45,139 bases of DNA from Bacteroidales bacterium (lineage in GTDB: Bacteria > Bacteroidota > Bacteroidia > Bacteroidales > WCHB1-69), in NCBI GenBank assembly GCA_017506175.1, contig JAFVNW010000009.1, forward strand, positions 66,754 through 111,892. The letters are read 5' to 3'. The notes under the pieces were generated by a model. The model was not told where the DNA came from, ran no database searches, and saw only the letters and a list, made by a program, of their open reading frames with translations. Position numbers and translations under genes: made by a program. The number at the start of each line of letters is the position of its first letter. The stretch's first letter is position 1. This document shows positions 2,553 through 8,973 of the stretch, one piece after another.

Positions 2553-3149
2553 CTATTTTACCAGATTTGGGATTTCCTCATCGCTCGGGTTGGTGAACCC
2601 AGCCTTCCAAGTTGCCGTCGGATAAGCAGCTTTCAAATCCTCGCAAGCTTTGTCGATGGAACTGCCACCGGAAGTGGCGAACGGGATGATGGTCTTGCCA
2701 GAGAGGGGGTATTGTTCAAGGAAAGTATTGATGATGGTGGGGGCTGTGTACCACCAAATCGGGAAACCGATGTAGATGGTCTCGTACTGATCCCAATTAT
2801 CCACTTTATTGGCGATGGCGGGACGTGAGGTTTTGTCTTTCATTTCAACGGAAGAGCGCGATTTGTCGTTGCGCCAATCAAGGTCGGCTTCCGTATAAGG
2901 GGTTTCTGGCTTGATTTCAAAGAGGTCGGCATCGGCGGCTGTCGCAACCTTTTGCGCAAGTTTAGCAGTGGTGCCCGTGGCGGAGAAGTAGGCTACGAGG
3001 GTAGTTTTGGCGGCTGAAGCGGCAAGGGTGGAATCCTGCACACAAGCCGTCGTGTCGGCGCTGTTTTCTTGGGAATCCTTGTTGCTGGTGCAACCCAATG
3101 TAAGAACTGACAAAATCGCAGTCATAATAAACAATGATGATTTTTTCAT
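2553..3149 (-). CDS. Flavodoxin-like lipoprotein
   Basis: The 198-residue protein starts with a lipoprotein signal peptide ending in LTLGC (lipid-modified Cys20), then a linker rich in Ser, Asp and Ala, then a flavodoxin domain from about residue 48. The phosphate-binding loop of FMN is visible as YFSATGTTAK, and the IGFPIWWYTAPTIINTFLE block is typical of the flavodoxin_4 type. Such proteins carry electrons through FMN. The unusual point is location: the lipid anchor puts an otherwise cytoplasmic fold at the cell envelope. The redox partner is not known and no reductase lies next to it. It has its own promoter and terminator, so it is monocistronic. Confidence 0.88.
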   Translation of the reverse strand: MKKSSLFIMTAILSVLTLGCTSNKDSQENSADTTACVQDSTLAASAAKTTLVAYFSATGTTAKLAQKVATAADADLFEIKPETPYTEADLDWRNDKSRSSVEMKDKTSRPAIANKVDNWDQYETIYIGFPIWWYTAPTIINTFLEQYPLSGKTIIPFATSGGSSIDKACEDLKAAYPTATWKAGFTNPSDEEIPNLVK

Positions 3150-3235: not shown

Positions 3236-5470
3236 TCAAAAGCCTTCCGCCAATACGCTCCACCACCGCTTCATCTCCTCCACATCCAGCACGCCCAACG
3301 CAAAACCTTTTCTCGTTAATTCCACCGGAAGAATCTCGTCATACTTGTCGAAGGCGGGGGTTTCTTTCGGATAAAGCAGACTCATCGGGTCGAGAGGCTG
3401 AGACATCTCATCTTTCACGATTCTGAAAAAATCGCCGGGAGAGACCGACAGCGTGAACTGCATATAGTATGGGCGAAGGGAATCGAACCCTTTCATTCCC
3501 AGCCTTTTAGCGCATTTCAAACGCAGGAATCGCTCCAACGCCAAGAAAGAGTAGCTTCCCAGCCACGGCATCAAACAGTACATATTGCCGCCCAACGGCA
3601 ACAGCGGGTTCAGCCCCAATCCTGACTTCATTGCGGCATCGCGGGCCTGTGCCAAACGCGCGCGCGCATGGTCGAGCAGGTAGGGATAAACCGTTTCCTC
3701 CTGCAGCACCCTCTTCATCCTTTCCAAGATGCGTGTGTGAATATCGCCCGGCTCCAAACCGAAATAGGCCGGGACAATTCCTTTCACCGGATGGCAATAA
3801 ACGATGTGACGGTTCACATCCACCTCCTCCACCACCCACACGCGTCCGGCGATGGCAATTTTGTCATACACTGGCGGCGGCTTCACAATTGTGCCGATTT
3901 CCCGCGACTCGCAACGCACACTGTACTCCTCGTTTTCCTGAAAAACCGCATAGAACTTAAAGTTGTTCACCAGTCTCTCCCCCTTCAACCCGACAATCAG
4001 CCCATTGCTTTCTGTTCTTTGAATATATTGATTTTCAAGAAGATGACGGAGCAAAACGCGAAAATCGTCTTGCGAAATATTCTTAAAATAGCTCAATGTG
4101 AGCACATTTTGCGCCAATTCGGCGGGCGACATCTCGCCGCCGGAAGCCAATGTGCTCATCGTCTGATGGAATAGAAGACTGTAAGGAAGTCTTCCCGTGC
4201 GGGGCGGCTCCACCCATTTTTCCTCAAGATAAAGCTGCACCAAAGCGATGCCCTGCAGGAGCTTCCACGGAATAGTGTCGGGCAGGAGTGCTCTGGCTTC
4301 AGCGTGGTCTTCGCGCATGACGAACCACATTTCCGACGGAGCACCCCGCCTACCCGTCCGCCCCATCCGCTGCAGGAACGAGGACACAGTGTAAGGTGCG
4401 TCAATCTGGAAAGCGCGCTCCAAGCGCCCAATGTCGATGCCGAGTTCCAACGTAGAGGTGGTGCAGACCGTGTCCAGCGAGTCGTCCTCCTTCATAATCT
4501 CCTCTGCGCTTTGGCGGTAGGAAACCGACAGGTTTCCGTGGTGGATGAGGAAGCGGTCGGGCTCGTGCTTCGCCTCGCAATATTGCCGCAGCGTGGCGGT
4601 CACCACTTCGCACTCCTCGCGTGAGTTGGAGAATACCAGACACTTGTGGCCGCGGGTGTTTTCAAGGATGTACTCCAACCCCGGATCGAAGATGGACTGG
4701 ACGGCTTTCAATGGCGCGTTGAGGTCGTTTTGTGAGGGTTTGTTGATGCCCTCCGTCGTGGCCTGCGGACCAGAATTGTAGAAATGCTGCATTGAGATTC
4801 GCCAACGCGCGCCGCCGCTCTGGATGCGGGGAATGACGGTATCACGGCCAGTTCCATCGGAAAGGAAATGTCCGACGGCTTGCAGGTCGCCAATGGTGGC
4901 TGAAAGCCCGATACGGCGGGGTTGGACACCGGCGAGGCGCGCCAGCCGTTCAATCAAACAGAGTGTCTGTCCGCCACGGTCGCCACGCAAAAAAGAGTGG
5001 ATTTCGTCAATCACGATGAAACGCAAATCCCCAAAAAGATGCGGAATTTCGGAATGCTTGTGCAAGAGCATCGCCTCAAGCGATTCAGGCGTGATTTGCA
5101 GGATGCCGGAGGGGTGCTTCATCAGCCGTTTTTTCTGCGATTGCGAAACATCGCCGTGCCAATGCCACACCTCAATGCCACTCTCCGCACAGATGTCGTT
5201 GAGACGTGAGAACTGGTCATTGATGAGCGCTTTCAACGGGGCAATATAGAGGCAACCGATGCTGGTGGGCGGCTCTTCCTGCATCAGCGTGATGATGGGG
5301 AAAAAGGCCGCTTCGGTTTTGCCGGAGGCCGTCGATGCGGAGAGCAATACGTTTGCATCGGTGTTGAAGATGGCATCCCCCGCCGCCGCCTGTATGGCCC
5401 GCAGGTTTTCCCATCCGCTCTGATAGATGTAGTGCTGGATGGTGGGAGAATATCGGGAAAAAAGGTTCAT
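3236..5470 (-). CDS. Lhr-like superfamily 2 DEAD/DEAH helicase (triad member)
   Basis: The 744-residue protein carries a full set of SF2 motifs: Walker A STASGKT (about 46-52), DEIH (155-158), SAT (190-192), the TSTLELGIDIG motif and QRMGRTGRRG (motif VI). A long C-terminal region of about 350 residues follows, as in the Lhr core family and in BrxHI of BREX systems. It should couple ATP hydrolysis to movement on or remodelling of nucleic acid. Its ATG overlaps the stop of the upstream ATPase gene (ATGA, 5467-5470), so the two are translationally coupled. Together with the TerB_N/TerB_C gene it forms the triad discussed in the findings. There is no nuclease, methylase or PglZ domain here or adjacent. 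Function beyond helicase activity is inference. Confidence 0.88.
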   Translation of the reverse strand: MNLFSRYSPTIQHYIYQSGWENLRAIQAAAGDAIFNTDANVLLSASTASGKTEAAFFPIITLMQEEPPTSIGCLYIAPLKALINDQFSRLNDICAESGIEVWHWHGDVSQSQKKRLMKHPSGILQITPESLEAMLLHKHSEIPHLFGDLRFIVIDEIHSFLRGDRGGQTLCLIERLARLAGVQPRRIGLSATIGDLQAVGHFLSDGTGRDTVIPRIQSGGARWRISMQHFYNSGPQATTEGINKPSQNDLNAPLKAVQSIFDPGLEYILENTRGHKCLVFSNSREECEVVTATLRQYCEAKHEPDRFLIHHGNLSVSYRQSAEEIMKEDDSLDTVCTTSTLELGIDIGRLERAFQIDAPYTVSSFLQRMGRTGRRGAPSEMWFVMREDHAEARALLPDTIPWKLLQGIALVQLYLEEKWVEPPRTGRLPYSLLFHQTMSTLASGGEMSPAELAQNVLTLSYFKNISQDDFRVLLRHLLENQYIQRTESNGLIVGLKGERLVNNFKFYAVFQENEEYSVRCESREIGTIVKPPPVYDKIAIAGRVWVVEEVDVNRHIVYCHPVKGIVPAYFGLEPGDIHTRILERMKRVLQEETVYPYLLDHARARLAQARDAAMKSGLGLNPLLPLGGNMYCLMPWLGSYSFLALERFLRLKCAKRLGMKGFDSLRPYYMQFTLSVSPGDFFRIVKDEMSQPLDPMSLLYPKETPAFDKYDEILPVELTRKGFALGVLDVEEMKRWWSVLAEGF

Positions 5471-6804
5471 ATCGTGAAATCCGCAAACTGGTCGTCAATC
5501 GGTTTGTCCTCCGCTGCCGGCTTGGCATAACTGAAGGCATCGGAAGAGAGAATCTGCTGTATTTTCATCTCAGGATGTTGATAGAGAATGTCCAAAAGCT
5601 CAATGAAGTCGCGGATGACCTCGCGCGGCGTGATATTCGTGCTCGCTCCGATTCTCCCGTACTCAATCTTGATGAAATCTTCCAAATCCTTGTCGGTGAT
5701 AGCTGATTGATAGCCATAAAGTCCTGAATGCAAATTAGTTAACTTCTCCGTCAGCACCAACATTTCCTCGTATGTCAGCGGTTGCAGACGGATGACGGGG
5801 GCTAGAAGGTCCTGCGCGCCGGCGGTGGAGAACTTGCCCTGCTGCAACCTTGAGCGCAACGCCTCATAGCTATACACCCCGCGATGGTTGTCCTCGATGC
5901 ATTGCGGCGTGCCGCACATAATCGTGCCGATGTACTGCGCCTTGCCCTGCAACGCATCGTTGTACATCGTAAGCATCTTCTCGTAATTGTACTGCCGCGT
6001 GATGCTGTTGGGGATTTTGTAGATGTTGACCAACTCGTCAACCAGCACGAGCATGCCCGCATAGCCCGCCTGCCGGAAGAAGAAGGCGAAGAGTTTGAGG
6101 TACTCGTACCAATCGTCATCAGAGATGATGACGGTGACGCCCAATTCCTGCCGAGCCTCCGACTTGGTGGTGTACTCGCCACGGAACCACTTGAGCACCT
6201 TGCCCTTCAGCTCGTCATCACCATCGGTGAAAGCCTTGTAATAGAGCGACAACAACTTGGCAAAATCGAAACCGTGCACCAAATCCTGCATCTGGCGGAT
6301 AACGGCAAAAATCTGCAGTTCCACCTTTGCGGCAAAGCTGGGGCTATCGGGACTGACGCCGAGTTCAGAAGCAACTTGTGTTTGAACATTGTTGATCCAG
6401 CGATCAAGAACGAGGGTAAGTGCACCACCTTCGGGACGGGTCTTCACGCTCAGGTTTCTAATCATTTCGCGGTAAGTGGCAAGCCCTTGTCCGTGCGTAC
6501 CCTGAAGGCGGCGCTCAGGCGAGAGGTCGGCATCGACCACAACGAAATTCCTGTCCATCACGTAGTTACGTATAATTTGGAGAAGAAAGGACTTGCCGCT
6601 GCCGTACTTTCCAACAATAAAGCGAAAGGAGGCGCCACCTTCGCCGATGATATGGACATCGTGGAGCAACGCTTCGATTTCCTTACGCCGCCCGACTGTG
6701 ATGTACGGGAGTCCGATGCGCGGAACCACGCCACCCTTCAAGGAGTTGAGGACAGTTTGCGCGATTCGGCGTGGGATTTTGGGAGTGATATTGCTTTCGT
6801 TCAT
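5467..6804 (-). CDS. BrxC/BrxD-type P-loop ATPase (DUF2791 family, triad member)
   Basis: The 445-residue protein has Walker A GKYGSGKS at 65-72 and Walker B MLVLVDE at 251-257. The region after Walker B, with ITRQYNYEKMLTMYNDALQ and IGTIMCGTPQ, matches what I remember of the BrxC/BrxD (DUF2791) ATP-binding proteins, an AAA-like ATPase group. It is the size of BrxD (about 440 residues), much shorter than BrxC. It probably acts as a DNA-associated ATPase working with the coupled helicase. A clear -7 box 55 bases upstream means the ATPase-helicase pair can be transcribed without dtd and the TerB gene. No PglX, PglZ, BrxA or BrxB lies in the window, so this is not a BREX locus. The family call is fairly firm; the biological role is unproven. 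Confidence 0.85.
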   Translation of the reverse strand: MNESNITPKIPRRIAQTVLNSLKGGVVPRIGLPYITVGRRKEIEALLHDVHIIGEGGASFRFIVGKYGSGKSFLLQIIRNYVMDRNFVVVDADLSPERRLQGTHGQGLATYREMIRNLSVKTRPEGGALTLVLDRWINNVQTQVASELGVSPDSPSFAAKVELQIFAVIRQMQDLVHGFDFAKLLSLYYKAFTDGDDELKGKVLKWFRGEYTTKSEARQELGVTVIISDDDWYEYLKLFAFFFRQAGYAGMLVLVDELVNIYKIPNSITRQYNYEKMLTMYNDALQGKAQYIGTIMCGTPQCIEDNHRGVYSYEALRSRLQQGKFSTAGAQDLLAPVIRLQPLTYEEMLVLTEKLTNLHSGLYGYQSAITDKDLEDFIKIEYGRIGASTNITPREVIRDFIELLDILYQHPEMKIQQILSSDAFSYAKPAAEDKPIDDQFADFTI

Positions 6805-6858
6805 AGGTACAGTTCCCTTACTTACATGATTTTACTGATATATTTTAATCTCGGGGCG

Positions 6859-6866
6859 CAAAAGTA
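6859..6866 (-). promoter_or_regulatory. -7 box for the ATPase-helicase pair
   Basis: The minus strand reads TACTTTTG in the 68-base gap between dtd and the ATPase, 54 bases before the ATPase ATG. It gives the pair a promoter separate from the dtd transcript. Confidence 0.65.
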
Positions 6867-6872
6867 AAGAAA

Positions 6873-7319
6873 TTATTCGGAAGAATCAATGAGGATGGTC
6901 ACCGGGCCGTCGTTAATGAAATCGACTTTCATATCAGCACCGAAATGTCCTGTAGCCACACGCACCCCGTATTCACGACTGAGGATTTCGTTGAAGTAAT
7001 CATACAACGGGCGGGCCTGTTCGGGACGGGCGGCACCAACAAACGAAGGGCGATTGCCCTTTCGACAGTCGCCATAGAGGGTGAACTGCGAAATGGAGAG
7101 GATCTCTCCGCCCACATCGGCCAGCGACAGGTTCATCTTGCCATCCGCATCCTCAAAAACGCGCAAGCCAGAAACTTTCTTGGCCATATAGGCCACATCG
7201 TCCTTCGTGTCAGTATGGGTGATTCCCACCAACACCACAAATCCCTTGTCAATTTTGCCTACGGTTTCCCCGTCAATCCGAACCTCTGCATGCGTTGTGC
7301 GTTGAATAACTACTCTCAT
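6873..7319 (-). CDS. dtd: D-aminoacyl-tRNA deacylase
   Basis: The 148-residue protein has the DTD family length and both signature motifs: SQFTLYGD, and a C-terminal NDGPVT that carries the Gly-cisPro chirality check. It hydrolyses D-amino acids (and mis-charged glycine) from tRNA in the cytoplasm, which keeps D-residues out of proteins. It stands between the TerB_N/TerB_C gene (82-base gap) and the ATPase gene (68-base gap), all on the same strand. No -7 box was found directly before it, so it is probably read through from the TerB promoter. There is no evident functional link to its neighbours. Confidence 0.96.
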
Positions 7320-7401
7320 TTCTTTGTGTTTATTATAGAATGGTTTATCATCATTTTCACTTATTCCGCCGTTATGCGGCCCACTTCCCGAAGGAGGGTC
7401 G

Positions 7402-8940
7402 TCACTCCCCTATCATTCCCTTCAACTCCTCCAGATAATCCTCGATGACCTCCGGACCGTTGCCATTGTCAGTCAGCACGGTATCCTGAAATTCATCCAT
7501 CAGGTGCTCGTTGACGCTGTCCATCATCACGCCTTCGGGGATGTGCTTTTCGCGGAGGAAGGCACGCCAGTCGCCACCGGAAATCAGCCGACGGAGGAAC
7601 TCCATCTCATCGTCATCCAAAAGGTCCGGCTGAGTGGATTGAGCGGGCTGAACAGCTTGCAGTTCAACGGGAACGGGCTGCGACTCCAAAATTTCCATCC
7701 CTTCCATCCGTTCCTCATCGCTGAGCAGGGCTTCGCGAATTACGGAGGCATCGCTGCGGATGTCGGCGAGTTTAGAGAAGTCAACCTGTATTTTCGGGCG
7801 AGCGGCTTCTGCCTTCTCTTTCAGATAATGATCAATTACTTTTTGTATAATTAATTCAATATCAGCATCATACAATTTTTGAGTCGTTTTCGACATCCCT
7901 TGGGTGACCAAACGCAAGCGACGGTCGGTCTCGTGAAGCAGCATCCCCAAAAGCACGCCACGTTTGCCAAGCTGCTTGTAAACATCCAACGTCCAGAGCC
8001 CATTGCGACAGATATACTTCCTGCGTTCAGAAATGCTGAAAACGTAATCTTTCGGAGGATGGGGATTGTAGAAAACGGCGGCCTCGAACATCGGGTGCCC
8101 CGTCTGTCGCTTCAGCCCGCACATCAGGTTTTCGAAACGGTGATGCTCGCGTTTTTCAATAACTGGAGCGGCTTTGCGAATCACACCAACGACCACCTTC
8201 TGCACATCTTGGGGCGATTTTTTGTATAAAATGGACTTTTTAACATTGAAAGTGGAATAATTGCAGGCGGTTTCAAACAAGATATCGTCATTTTCATTGT
8301 CACGATTGGCGAAAATGGCCGCTGCCATATCCTCCCGCAATTCAGTGGAAAAGAACTCGCTCCGTCGGTCAATCAGGTTGTAATAAGCGACATAGTCGCG
8401 CATCCAATTTTCGAGATAGCGCAGCAGTTTGGGCTCGTTTTCGCAATAGCCGTCACGCAAATCCTCCAGAATCTCCAAGCCCACTTCGGGATTTTCAACC
8501 CCGACCTGCATCAGCGTTTCGTAGATATAGACGAAAAGGTACGAGAGCGAGGTGTCGGGATGCTGGCCGCGACGCCAAAGTTTGCGAAGGGTGAAATAAC
8601 TCCGCAACTGTCTGACATTCATTTCCTTATAAACAGGAAAATAACATTGAAAGGGCACGATTTCATCTGCGGAGTCTTCAAAGTCGGCCATCATCGCCGC
8701 CTGTTTATAAAAACTCTTACTGCGGGTGATTGTCCACGGCTCAGCGTTAATCGTCTCCATCAGCTGCTGCAACTTCGGCGGGGCATCATCAAAATCGGAA
8801 TAAACCGGAACTTGACGACCTGTATCCTCACTGCTGGAACTGCGCACAAAATCCCAATAGCCAAGAAAAGGCTTCCAGTCAGTATCGGGATCATCCCCTA
8901 AAGGGACGTCAACATAGTAATTATTAATGTCTTCGTTCAT
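7402..8940 (-). CDS. TerB_N and TerB_C domain protein (triad member)
   Basis: The 512-residue protein has a TerB_N-like region (about 70-270, with [20 protein letters not shown] and [15 protein letters not shown]) and a TerB_C-like C-terminus (about 410-510, including [19 protein letters not shown] and [14 protein letters not shown]). Between them lies a variable segment rich in Glu, Pro and Gln. These two domains flank a TerB core in tellurite-resistance-related proteins; no obvious TerB core is visible here. In many genomes such proteins are encoded with a DUF2791 ATPase and an SF2 helicase, as here, and are thought to act in stress or DNA-processing responses. No signal peptide or membrane segment is seen, so it is cytoplasmic. 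It is the promoter-proximal gene, with its own -7 box. Domain assignment is from memory and moderately firm. Confidence 0.75.
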
Positions 8941-8965
8941 TTTGTACGAGTAGCAAACGCGAGTG

Positions 8966-8973
8966 CAAAGTTA
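8966..8973 (-). promoter_or_regulatory. -7 box of the TerB_N/TerB_C gene
   Basis: The minus strand reads TAACTTTG (TAnnTTTG), 26 bases before the ATG at 8940. The promoter faces away from that of kce about 140 bases off. Confidence 0.65.

Follow-up and report, generated by a model that had tools for sequence, protein, structure and literature searches.

Shango is an anti-phage system made up of a TerB-type protein, an ATPase and a DEAD/DEAH helicase (PMC10250203). When the three genes were cloned from Pseudomonas aeruginosa PA14, the plating of many phages was reduced by 10-100-fold, and an Escherichia coli Shango caused a ∼10-fold drop in plating with two phages (PMC10250203; this and the other published studies are cited from the excerpts available). 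In a review table, the TerB domain PF05099 is given for Shango (PMC10952713). Here, a 45,139-nt stretch of contig JAFVNW010000009.1 from a Bacteroidales bacterium (assembly GCA_017506175.1, 91% complete) was analyzed; it is referred to as the window. Judging from the encoded proteins, a locus on its minus strand is almost certainly an SngABC Shango system, that is, an anti-phage system of an already known kind.

Identity and gene order of the Shango locus

The initial annotation had placed a TerB_N/TerB_C protein, a BrxC/D-family ATPase and a superfamily 2 (SF2) helicase on the minus strand at positions 3236-8940. Open reading frame (ORF) calls and Pfam searches recovered all three, and the domain families named then were found with strong E-values (Table 1). 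The best PADLOC matches of the three proteins were SngA, SngB and SngC. SngB scored 636.8 bits against the PADLOC SngB profile vs 161 bits against BrxD (E 1e-47), and SngC scored 913.4 bits against PADLOC SngC vs 419 bits against BrxHI (E 7e-126). The suggested likeness to BrxD and BrxHI outside bacteriophage exclusion (BREX) loci was thus confirmed, with the Sng profiles scoring higher. The further statement that no experimental role was known proved wrong, since Shango is a named system that has already been assayed against phages in P. aeruginosa (PMC10250203).

According to the ORF calls, the genes are arranged head to tail in the order sngA, dtd, sngB and sngC. The earlier description of a three-gene triad held for the genes and their domains, but the three genes are not contiguous: the TerB gene is separated from the ATPase gene by a complete dtd gene at 6873-7319, which had been overlooked. 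The overlap of the ATPase and helicase genes (ATGA, 4 bp) was as first read. In SngB, the P-loop GKYGSGKS (residues 65-72) is intact and the acidic LVDE (residues 254-257) is conserved in the alignment, and helicase motifs were present in SngC on inspection of the sequence. No nuclease domain was found in SngA, SngB or SngC by a Pfam search of the window proteins.

Table 1. Features of the Shango locus, in window coordinates
Feature	Position	Strand	Description	Evidence
sngA	7402..8940	-	TerB_N-TerB_C protein, 512 aa, without PF05099 TerB	PADLOC SngA E 2.5e-65; Pfam
TerB_N of SngA	8146..8769	-	residues 58-265	Pfam E 7.9e-24
TerB_C of SngA	7420..7833	-	residues 370-507	Pfam E 1.3e-23
dtd	6873..7319	-	D-aminoacyl-tRNA deacylase, between sngA and sngB	Tyr_Deacylase PF02580 E 9.9e-62; TIGR00256 above cut-off
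sngB	5467..6804	-	BrxC/D-family P-loop ATPase, 445 aa	PADLOC SngB E 5.1e-192; PF10923 BrxC_BrxD E 2.1e-169
sngC	3236..5470	-	SF2 helicase, 744 aa	PADLOC SngC E 3.4e-275; DEAD E 2.1e-29; Helicase_C E 1.5e-18
TAnnTTTGC element	8965..8973	-	∼25 bp upstream of the sngA start	pattern scan, conserved in G011
TAnnTTTGC element	6858..6866	-	between dtd and sngB	pattern scan, conserved in G011

The linkage of the three genes was analyzed in GTDB genomes, in which at least 514 encoded SngB relatives were found among at least 590 pattern matches. The best 80 of these 514 were used; they are the closest to the window SngB, so that the window lineage is over-represented. SngA was encoded upstream of SngB in 78/78 loci with more than 300 bp of upstream sequence, and SngC was encoded downstream in 73 of the 75 loci with more than 300 bp of downstream sequence. 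The three families thus co-occur, a point that the initial annotation had asked to be checked. Only 973 bp were left in one of the two loci without SngC (L049), and 6997 bp in the other (L066). The gaps were mostly short (≤100 bp between sngA and sngB in 71/78 and between sngB and sngC in 66/73), and the 4-bp overlap of sngB and sngC seen in the window was found in 34 of the 73 loci. Insertions containing unrelated reading frames were seen in five loci; they measured 0.6-2.6 kb and split sngB from sngC in L054, L076, L078 and L083, and measured 2.1 kb and split sngA from sngB in L049. Another split Shango, with divergent sngA and sngB, was observed in a genome of the same bacterial order (G089, L030:7921-11557), where the contig ends after sngB.

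Divergence of SngA and proposed division of labor

The ratio of nonsynonymous to synonymous substitution rates (dN/dS) between the window and its sister species G011 was 0.032 for sngB, 0.041 for sngC and 0.040 for dtd, vs 0.29 for sngA; the neighboring genes gave 0.009 (efp), 0.059 (lpxD), 0.036 (the BKACE gene) and 0.30 (the methyltransferase gene). The low values of sngB and sngC indicate that both are kept under selection, while sngA changes fast. Between the two species, SngA identity was 69% over residues 1-64, 89% over residues 65-128, 84% over residues 385-448 and 95-98% elsewhere. Residues 1-64 and 417-448 were also the least conserved across 65 loci, which were those of 89 with all three genes complete, SngC longer than 650 aa and SngA longer than 430 aa (58 of them from the best 80). 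In all 2080 of the 2080 pairs of these loci, SngA identity was below that of SngB and SngC (medians 28% vs 69% and 68%, respectively). The dN of SngA exceeded that of SngB and SngC in 14/14 of the closest pairs, at ∼3.5 to 8 times that of SngB; these pairs are 14 of the 25 with SngB identity above 0.9, they share loci, and the ratios are rough because dS was often near or above 1. When the trees of 61 of the 65 loci were compared (L031, L033, L034 and L035 being omitted), SngA and SngB distances correlated at 0.90 and SngA evolved at ∼4.5 times the rate. Thus, SngA largely travels with its partners, and the idea of SngA as a freely swapped cassette was rejected on this correlation.

The domain composition of SngA differed between lineages. 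Among 57 SngA proteins of the window lineage (the window and 56 of the 58 loci), TerB_N was found in 57, TerB_C in 56, TerB in none and YjbR in 12 (E ≤ 0.1). Of the two loci omitted, L106 encodes a SngA with TerB_N and TerB_C and no TerB, and L073 one with TerB_N only, according to profiles made here. The window SngA matched the TerB profile built here at E 6, i.e., it has no TerB, a domain that binds metal. In a second set of 29 SngA proteins, of which 5 were of the window type and 24 came from other lineages, all had TerB_C, 23 had TerB_N and 16 had TerB. In a tree of 107 SngB proteins, a sample biased to the window lineage, the 14 loci with TerB_N-TerB-TerB_C were separate (support 0.994), as were the 6 loci with TerB_C only (support 1.0), and all 75 TerB_N-TerB_C loci fell in a clan of 86 (support 1.0); L211, the SngA of which is cut, lay outside all groups. 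The other 11 tips of the clan comprised seven in which a contig end truncates SngA, L041 with a split SngA, L045 and L073 with TerB_C below the threshold, and L111 without SngA. On these domain calls, SngA architecture follows the SngB phylogeny. The absence of TerB was taken as a subtype feature rather than a system-defining one, because the protein is still matched by the PADLOC SngA profile and its partners by theirs. No published description of such lineages was found among open-licence papers, as far as the excerpts of these extend.

The variable SngA N-terminus gave the 12 YjbR matches, the best at E 1.1e-5. In the PDB, the profile of the 57 SngA proteins matched the YjbR-like 2kfp at its start (E 1.9e-10) and otherwise nothing better than E 0.2, and the profile of the 29 matched 2h5n (E 1.7e-4) in the region occupied by TerB in other lineages. 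In sequence searches of the PDB, neither the window SngA nor SngB, for which three sequences were used, had a match, and no hit of the SngB profile was better than E 0.016.

In one genome (G811, contig 30; L204:1166-13982), a single sngB and a single sngC follow four tandem sngA genes, the products of which are 56-62% mutually identical and each carry TerB_N, TerB and TerB_C according to our own profiles. Such an array is expected if SngA varies to recognize different targets; multiple specificity subunits in other systems provide an analogy. A further genome of the same genus (G691) has a lone sngA and an sngABC on separate contigs.

Taken together, we consider it somewhat more probable than not that the window carries a Shango system surrounding dtd and kept under selection, in which SngA would be the recognizer, SngB the loader or activator and SngC the helicase. 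Membership by sequence, linkage, constraint and variability were observed, whereas the roles and their order of action are what we infer; for this recognition-loader-helicase mechanism itself, we see about an even chance. SngA, as the recognition subunit, would meet a phage-specific signal through its fast-changing parts and would contact the conserved machinery with its TerB_C domain. The AAA+-like ATPase SngB would couple this signal to SngC by loading or activating it, and SngC, an Lhr/BrxHI-like SF2 helicase, would then act on the invading DNA, either blocking its replication or exposing it to host nucleases. The loader and helicase roles are proposed by homology to BrxD and BrxHI; BrxD has been classed among the ORC-Cdc6-type ATPases, and the two proteins were proposed to form a loader-helicase dyad in which BrxD would load BrxHI or activate it (PMC12839542). 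The initial annotation had guessed at a compact anti-phage system with the TerB protein as sensor; homologues do protect and an ATPase probably works with the helicase, but the proposed sensor has only TerB_N and TerB_C and no TerB proper. Protection by the window locus may be predicted from its homologues, for which it has been shown. More tentatively, and with somewhat less than an even chance, Shango may comprise lineages defined by SngA architecture (TerB_N-TerB-TerB_C; TerB_N-TerB_C; TerB_C without recognizable TerB_N), in which SngA is a fast-evolving recognizer served by a conserved SngB-SngC motor and sngA arrays widen the range in some genomes. If this were true, the TerB domain would be dispensable for the core mechanism, and if the TerB-less lineage is active, TerB cannot be essential to it. 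If SngA is the recognition subunit, the question of the Shango mechanism becomes directly testable, including with the natural four-sngA array.

Several points weigh against this explanation. We know of no phage assay of a TerB-less SngA, and the PDB searches brought up no solved structure clearly related to TerB_N, TerB_C or SngB. Segments of sngA were 85% to 99% identical in DNA between the window and G011, and the dS of the gene (0.14) lay below that of sngB (0.36), which makes recombination likely and the sngA dN/dS accordingly rough. Part of the dN excess of SngA may be alignment error, because SngA dS was raised in many pairs, and weak constraint, instead of an arms race, may account for its fast change. 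Of 29 supported SngA splits, six conflicted with SngB splits, and conflicts between SngB and SngC were equal in number. Moreover, the mechanism of Shango is entered as unknown in a resistance study (PMC10855318).

Alternatively, SngA could be the effector, toxin-like or acting on nucleic acids and set off by SngBC, with its fast change due to phage inhibitors or weak constraint; we regard this as rather unlikely. Pfam revealed no further candidate effector domain in any of the three proteins, and the TerB_N polar residues Q80, R113, R119, R123 and E141, which are invariant in the 57 proteins and 94-100% conserved over the 65 loci, could form an active or ligand site. However, the window SngA had no enzyme match in Pfam, PDB and profile searches, and four parallel SngA proteins for one SngBC fit a variety of recognition better than copies of an effector.

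Distribution, neighborhood and the inserted dtd gene

Shango was patchily distributed around the window lineage. PF10923 was found in 3 of 60 genomes searched, namely the window genome, its congener G011 and a genome of another family (G037), and the SngA profile was found in 6/393 genomes of the order (one of them weak) and 23/395 of the phylum; all these counts include the window genome. In an E. coli collection, a Klebsiella Shango was matched in 689 of 5426 genomes, with at least 80% of it covered in 437. A search of 50,697 phage records with SngB gave nothing at E ≤ 1e-5, and none of 30 pattern matches in IMG/VR was confirmed, the pattern method being one that may miss relatives. A phage-borne system was rejected on these results, and the Shango locus here is probably chromosomal.

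The locus is flanked on one side by genes for elongation factor P (efp), LpxD, a methylguanine methyltransferase and a flavodoxin, and on the other by genes for a BKACE enzyme, a short-chain dehydrogenase, an ABC ATPase, a SufBD protein and a pantoate ligase. Among the 31 other window ORFs at 9-45 kb, only one weak PADLOC match was found (NsnC, 3.9e-11), and the near flanks are ordinary genes; the locus is not in a recognized defence island. The 6-O-methylguanine DNA methyltransferase gene (1871-2485), with 84% protein identity to G011 and the dN/dS of 0.30, is fast, unlike efp, lpxD, dtd and the BKACE gene. The flavodoxin gene (2553-3149), between sngC and the methyltransferase gene, is absent at this place in G011.

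The neighbors of other Shango loci were compared with PADLOC at E ≤ 1e-10. The 105 immediate neighbors, taken from the longer loci of the 80, matched 45 PADLOC families, vs 13 families for 104 control ORFs from the window and six congener loci. This difference is only suggestive, because the control was not matched by taxon and several families can match one protein. The enrichment near defence genes that the initial annotation had proposed to check is suggested around other Shango loci but does not hold in the window. Among the 25 families listed of the 45, two were matched by three neighbors and the rest by one; PADLOC mad3 and mad8 each matched 3/105 neighbors, and mad3 also 1/104 controls. 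The control ORFs carried defence-like matches as well (e.g., AbiEi, DpdF, DndA and SspA). On a Sulfitobacter plasmid (L034:8169-13746), genes for a PD-(D/E)XK nuclease and a UvrD-type helicase come directly after sngC, and AbiE genes are close by.

The location of the window locus among ordinary metabolic and translation genes would suit a Ter-type host system that deals with DNA damage or stress and is not chiefly anti-phage, as would the best NCBIfam match of SngC, the ligase-associated DNA-damage helicase TIGR04121, although its 203.8 bits fall far below the cut-off of 850. Such a role appears improbable, given the phage protection by homologues (PMC10250203), the patchy presence in the order and in the 60 genomes searched for PF10923, and the higher scores of the PADLOC SngABC profiles.

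The three sng genes share strand and order, yet sngA is parted from sngB by dtd, and sngB has a promoter-like box ahead of it. The TAnnTTTGC element, which we liken to the -7 box of Bacteroidota promoters, occurs 18 times in the window vs 5.65 expected, a number reached in 0/100 shuffles. The box between dtd and sngB may be a separate promoter for sngBC, and dtd probably shares the sngA promoter. In G011, the order sngA-dtd-sngB-sngC was found at the same site beside lpxD and efp, with 92-94% DNA identity, dtd being 98.6% identical; among the loci examined, this layout was seen only in these two species.

In two Shango-less congeners, G001 and G012, efp-lpxD is followed by a dtd that is 70-71% identical, with convergent orientation as in the window. 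Based on this, dtd is probably a resident housekeeping gene and an incidental passenger, and the Shango genes, together with the methyltransferase gene between sngC and lpxD, probably came to flank it. A long-fixed site is opposed by five other Shango-less congeners (G003, G004, G006, G008 and G010), in which dtd is not beside lpxD, and by the BKACE gene, which does not share a contig with dtd in G001 or G012. dtd was matched in 8 of 12 congeners (99% identity in G011, 67-72% in six and 51% in one); the lack of a match in the other four likewise speaks against such a site. In most other genera of the family, the identity was 45-56%, but three genomes of genus g17 and G251 were as close as the congeners, so that the dtd sequence alone is not decisive on residency. 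In G001 and G012, dtd closely follows another reading frame, and no TAnnTTTG box was found within 320 bp upstream of it.

The split could mean that dtd uncoupled the operon and that a dead Shango is now decaying. The sngA dN/dS of 0.29 and a spacing unlike the usual tight operon would be in accord with this, but all three sng frames are intact in both species, sngB and sngC are under strong constraint, and promoter-like boxes are conserved before sngA and sngB, which makes decay very improbable. Slightly less probable still is a dtd acting as a fourth component, for example by removing D-aminoacyl-tRNA or a similar adduct made during infection. In favor of this, dtd lies inside the operon in two species with high identity and low dN/dS, and its absence from beside lpxD in 5 of the 7 Shango-less congeners with dtd leaves a long-fixed site unproven. 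However, dtd was present in 0/80 other Shango loci (the best 80), and none was found in the fetched Shango loci of G037 (which has sngA, sngB and sngC), Paenibacillus, Sulfitobacter and Klebsiella or in 20 further Bacteroidota regions; moreover, G001 and G012 carry it beside lpxD without Shango, and a promoter-like box separates it from sngB. A conserved dtd component of Shango was rejected on these grounds. With dtd as a passenger, the insertion would be a natural case of a defence operon tolerating the separation of sngA from sngBC.

Comparison with known defence systems

The window locus resembles BrxD-BrxHI of BREX type 2 in its linked genes for a related ATPase and a related SF2 helicase, and in a helicase tree SngC was grouped with BrxHI, DruE and DpdJ (PMC12278908). 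The BREX profiles score far lower than those of Shango, SngB reaches 164.8 bits against the NCBI BrxD equivalog with its cut-off of 350, and SngB was the only PF10923 match in a profile search of the 91% complete window genome, although some BrxC proteins may escape PF10923. SngA is the constant partner, and we know of no BREX counterpart to it. Despite the BrxD and BrxHI matches, a BREX remnant or a new BREX type with BrxD and BrxHI alone was therefore rejected as hardly credible on the missed cut-off, the far higher Sng scores and the single PF10923 protein, with no genome-wide search made for PglX, PglZ and PglW.

Like Shango, Hachiman HamAB is a defence built around an SF2 helicase; it differs in that HamA is a nuclease, whereas no such domain was found in the window SngABC, and HamB was grouped with the Ski2 helicases (PMC12278908). 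The window locus also recalls the Ter-linked DNA-processing systems in sharing TerB_N/TerB_C proteins with an ATPase and a helicase, and Shango is the experimentally tested member of this kind. Comparative genomics is said to have predicted such systems, with TerB_N and TerB_C proteins, an ATPase and a helicase, at an earlier date; the earlier Ter-system hypothesis is cited in the Shango study. 

The closest likeness is to the Shango systems of PA14 and E. coli (PMC10250203), which combine a TerB-type protein, an ATPase and a helicase, and the three PADLOC profiles match the window proteins. The window SngB is 38-41% identical to the SngB of Sulfitobacter and Klebsiella; the PA14 and tested E. 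coli systems are likened to the window locus by description and profiles. The window locus differs in a SngA without the PF05099 TerB that the SngA proteins of Sulfitobacter and Klebsiella carry, and in the dtd gene inside its operon. In identity, it is thus an ordinary known defence system, marked out by its TerB-less SngA, rapid SngA evolution and a tolerated split by a housekeeping gene.

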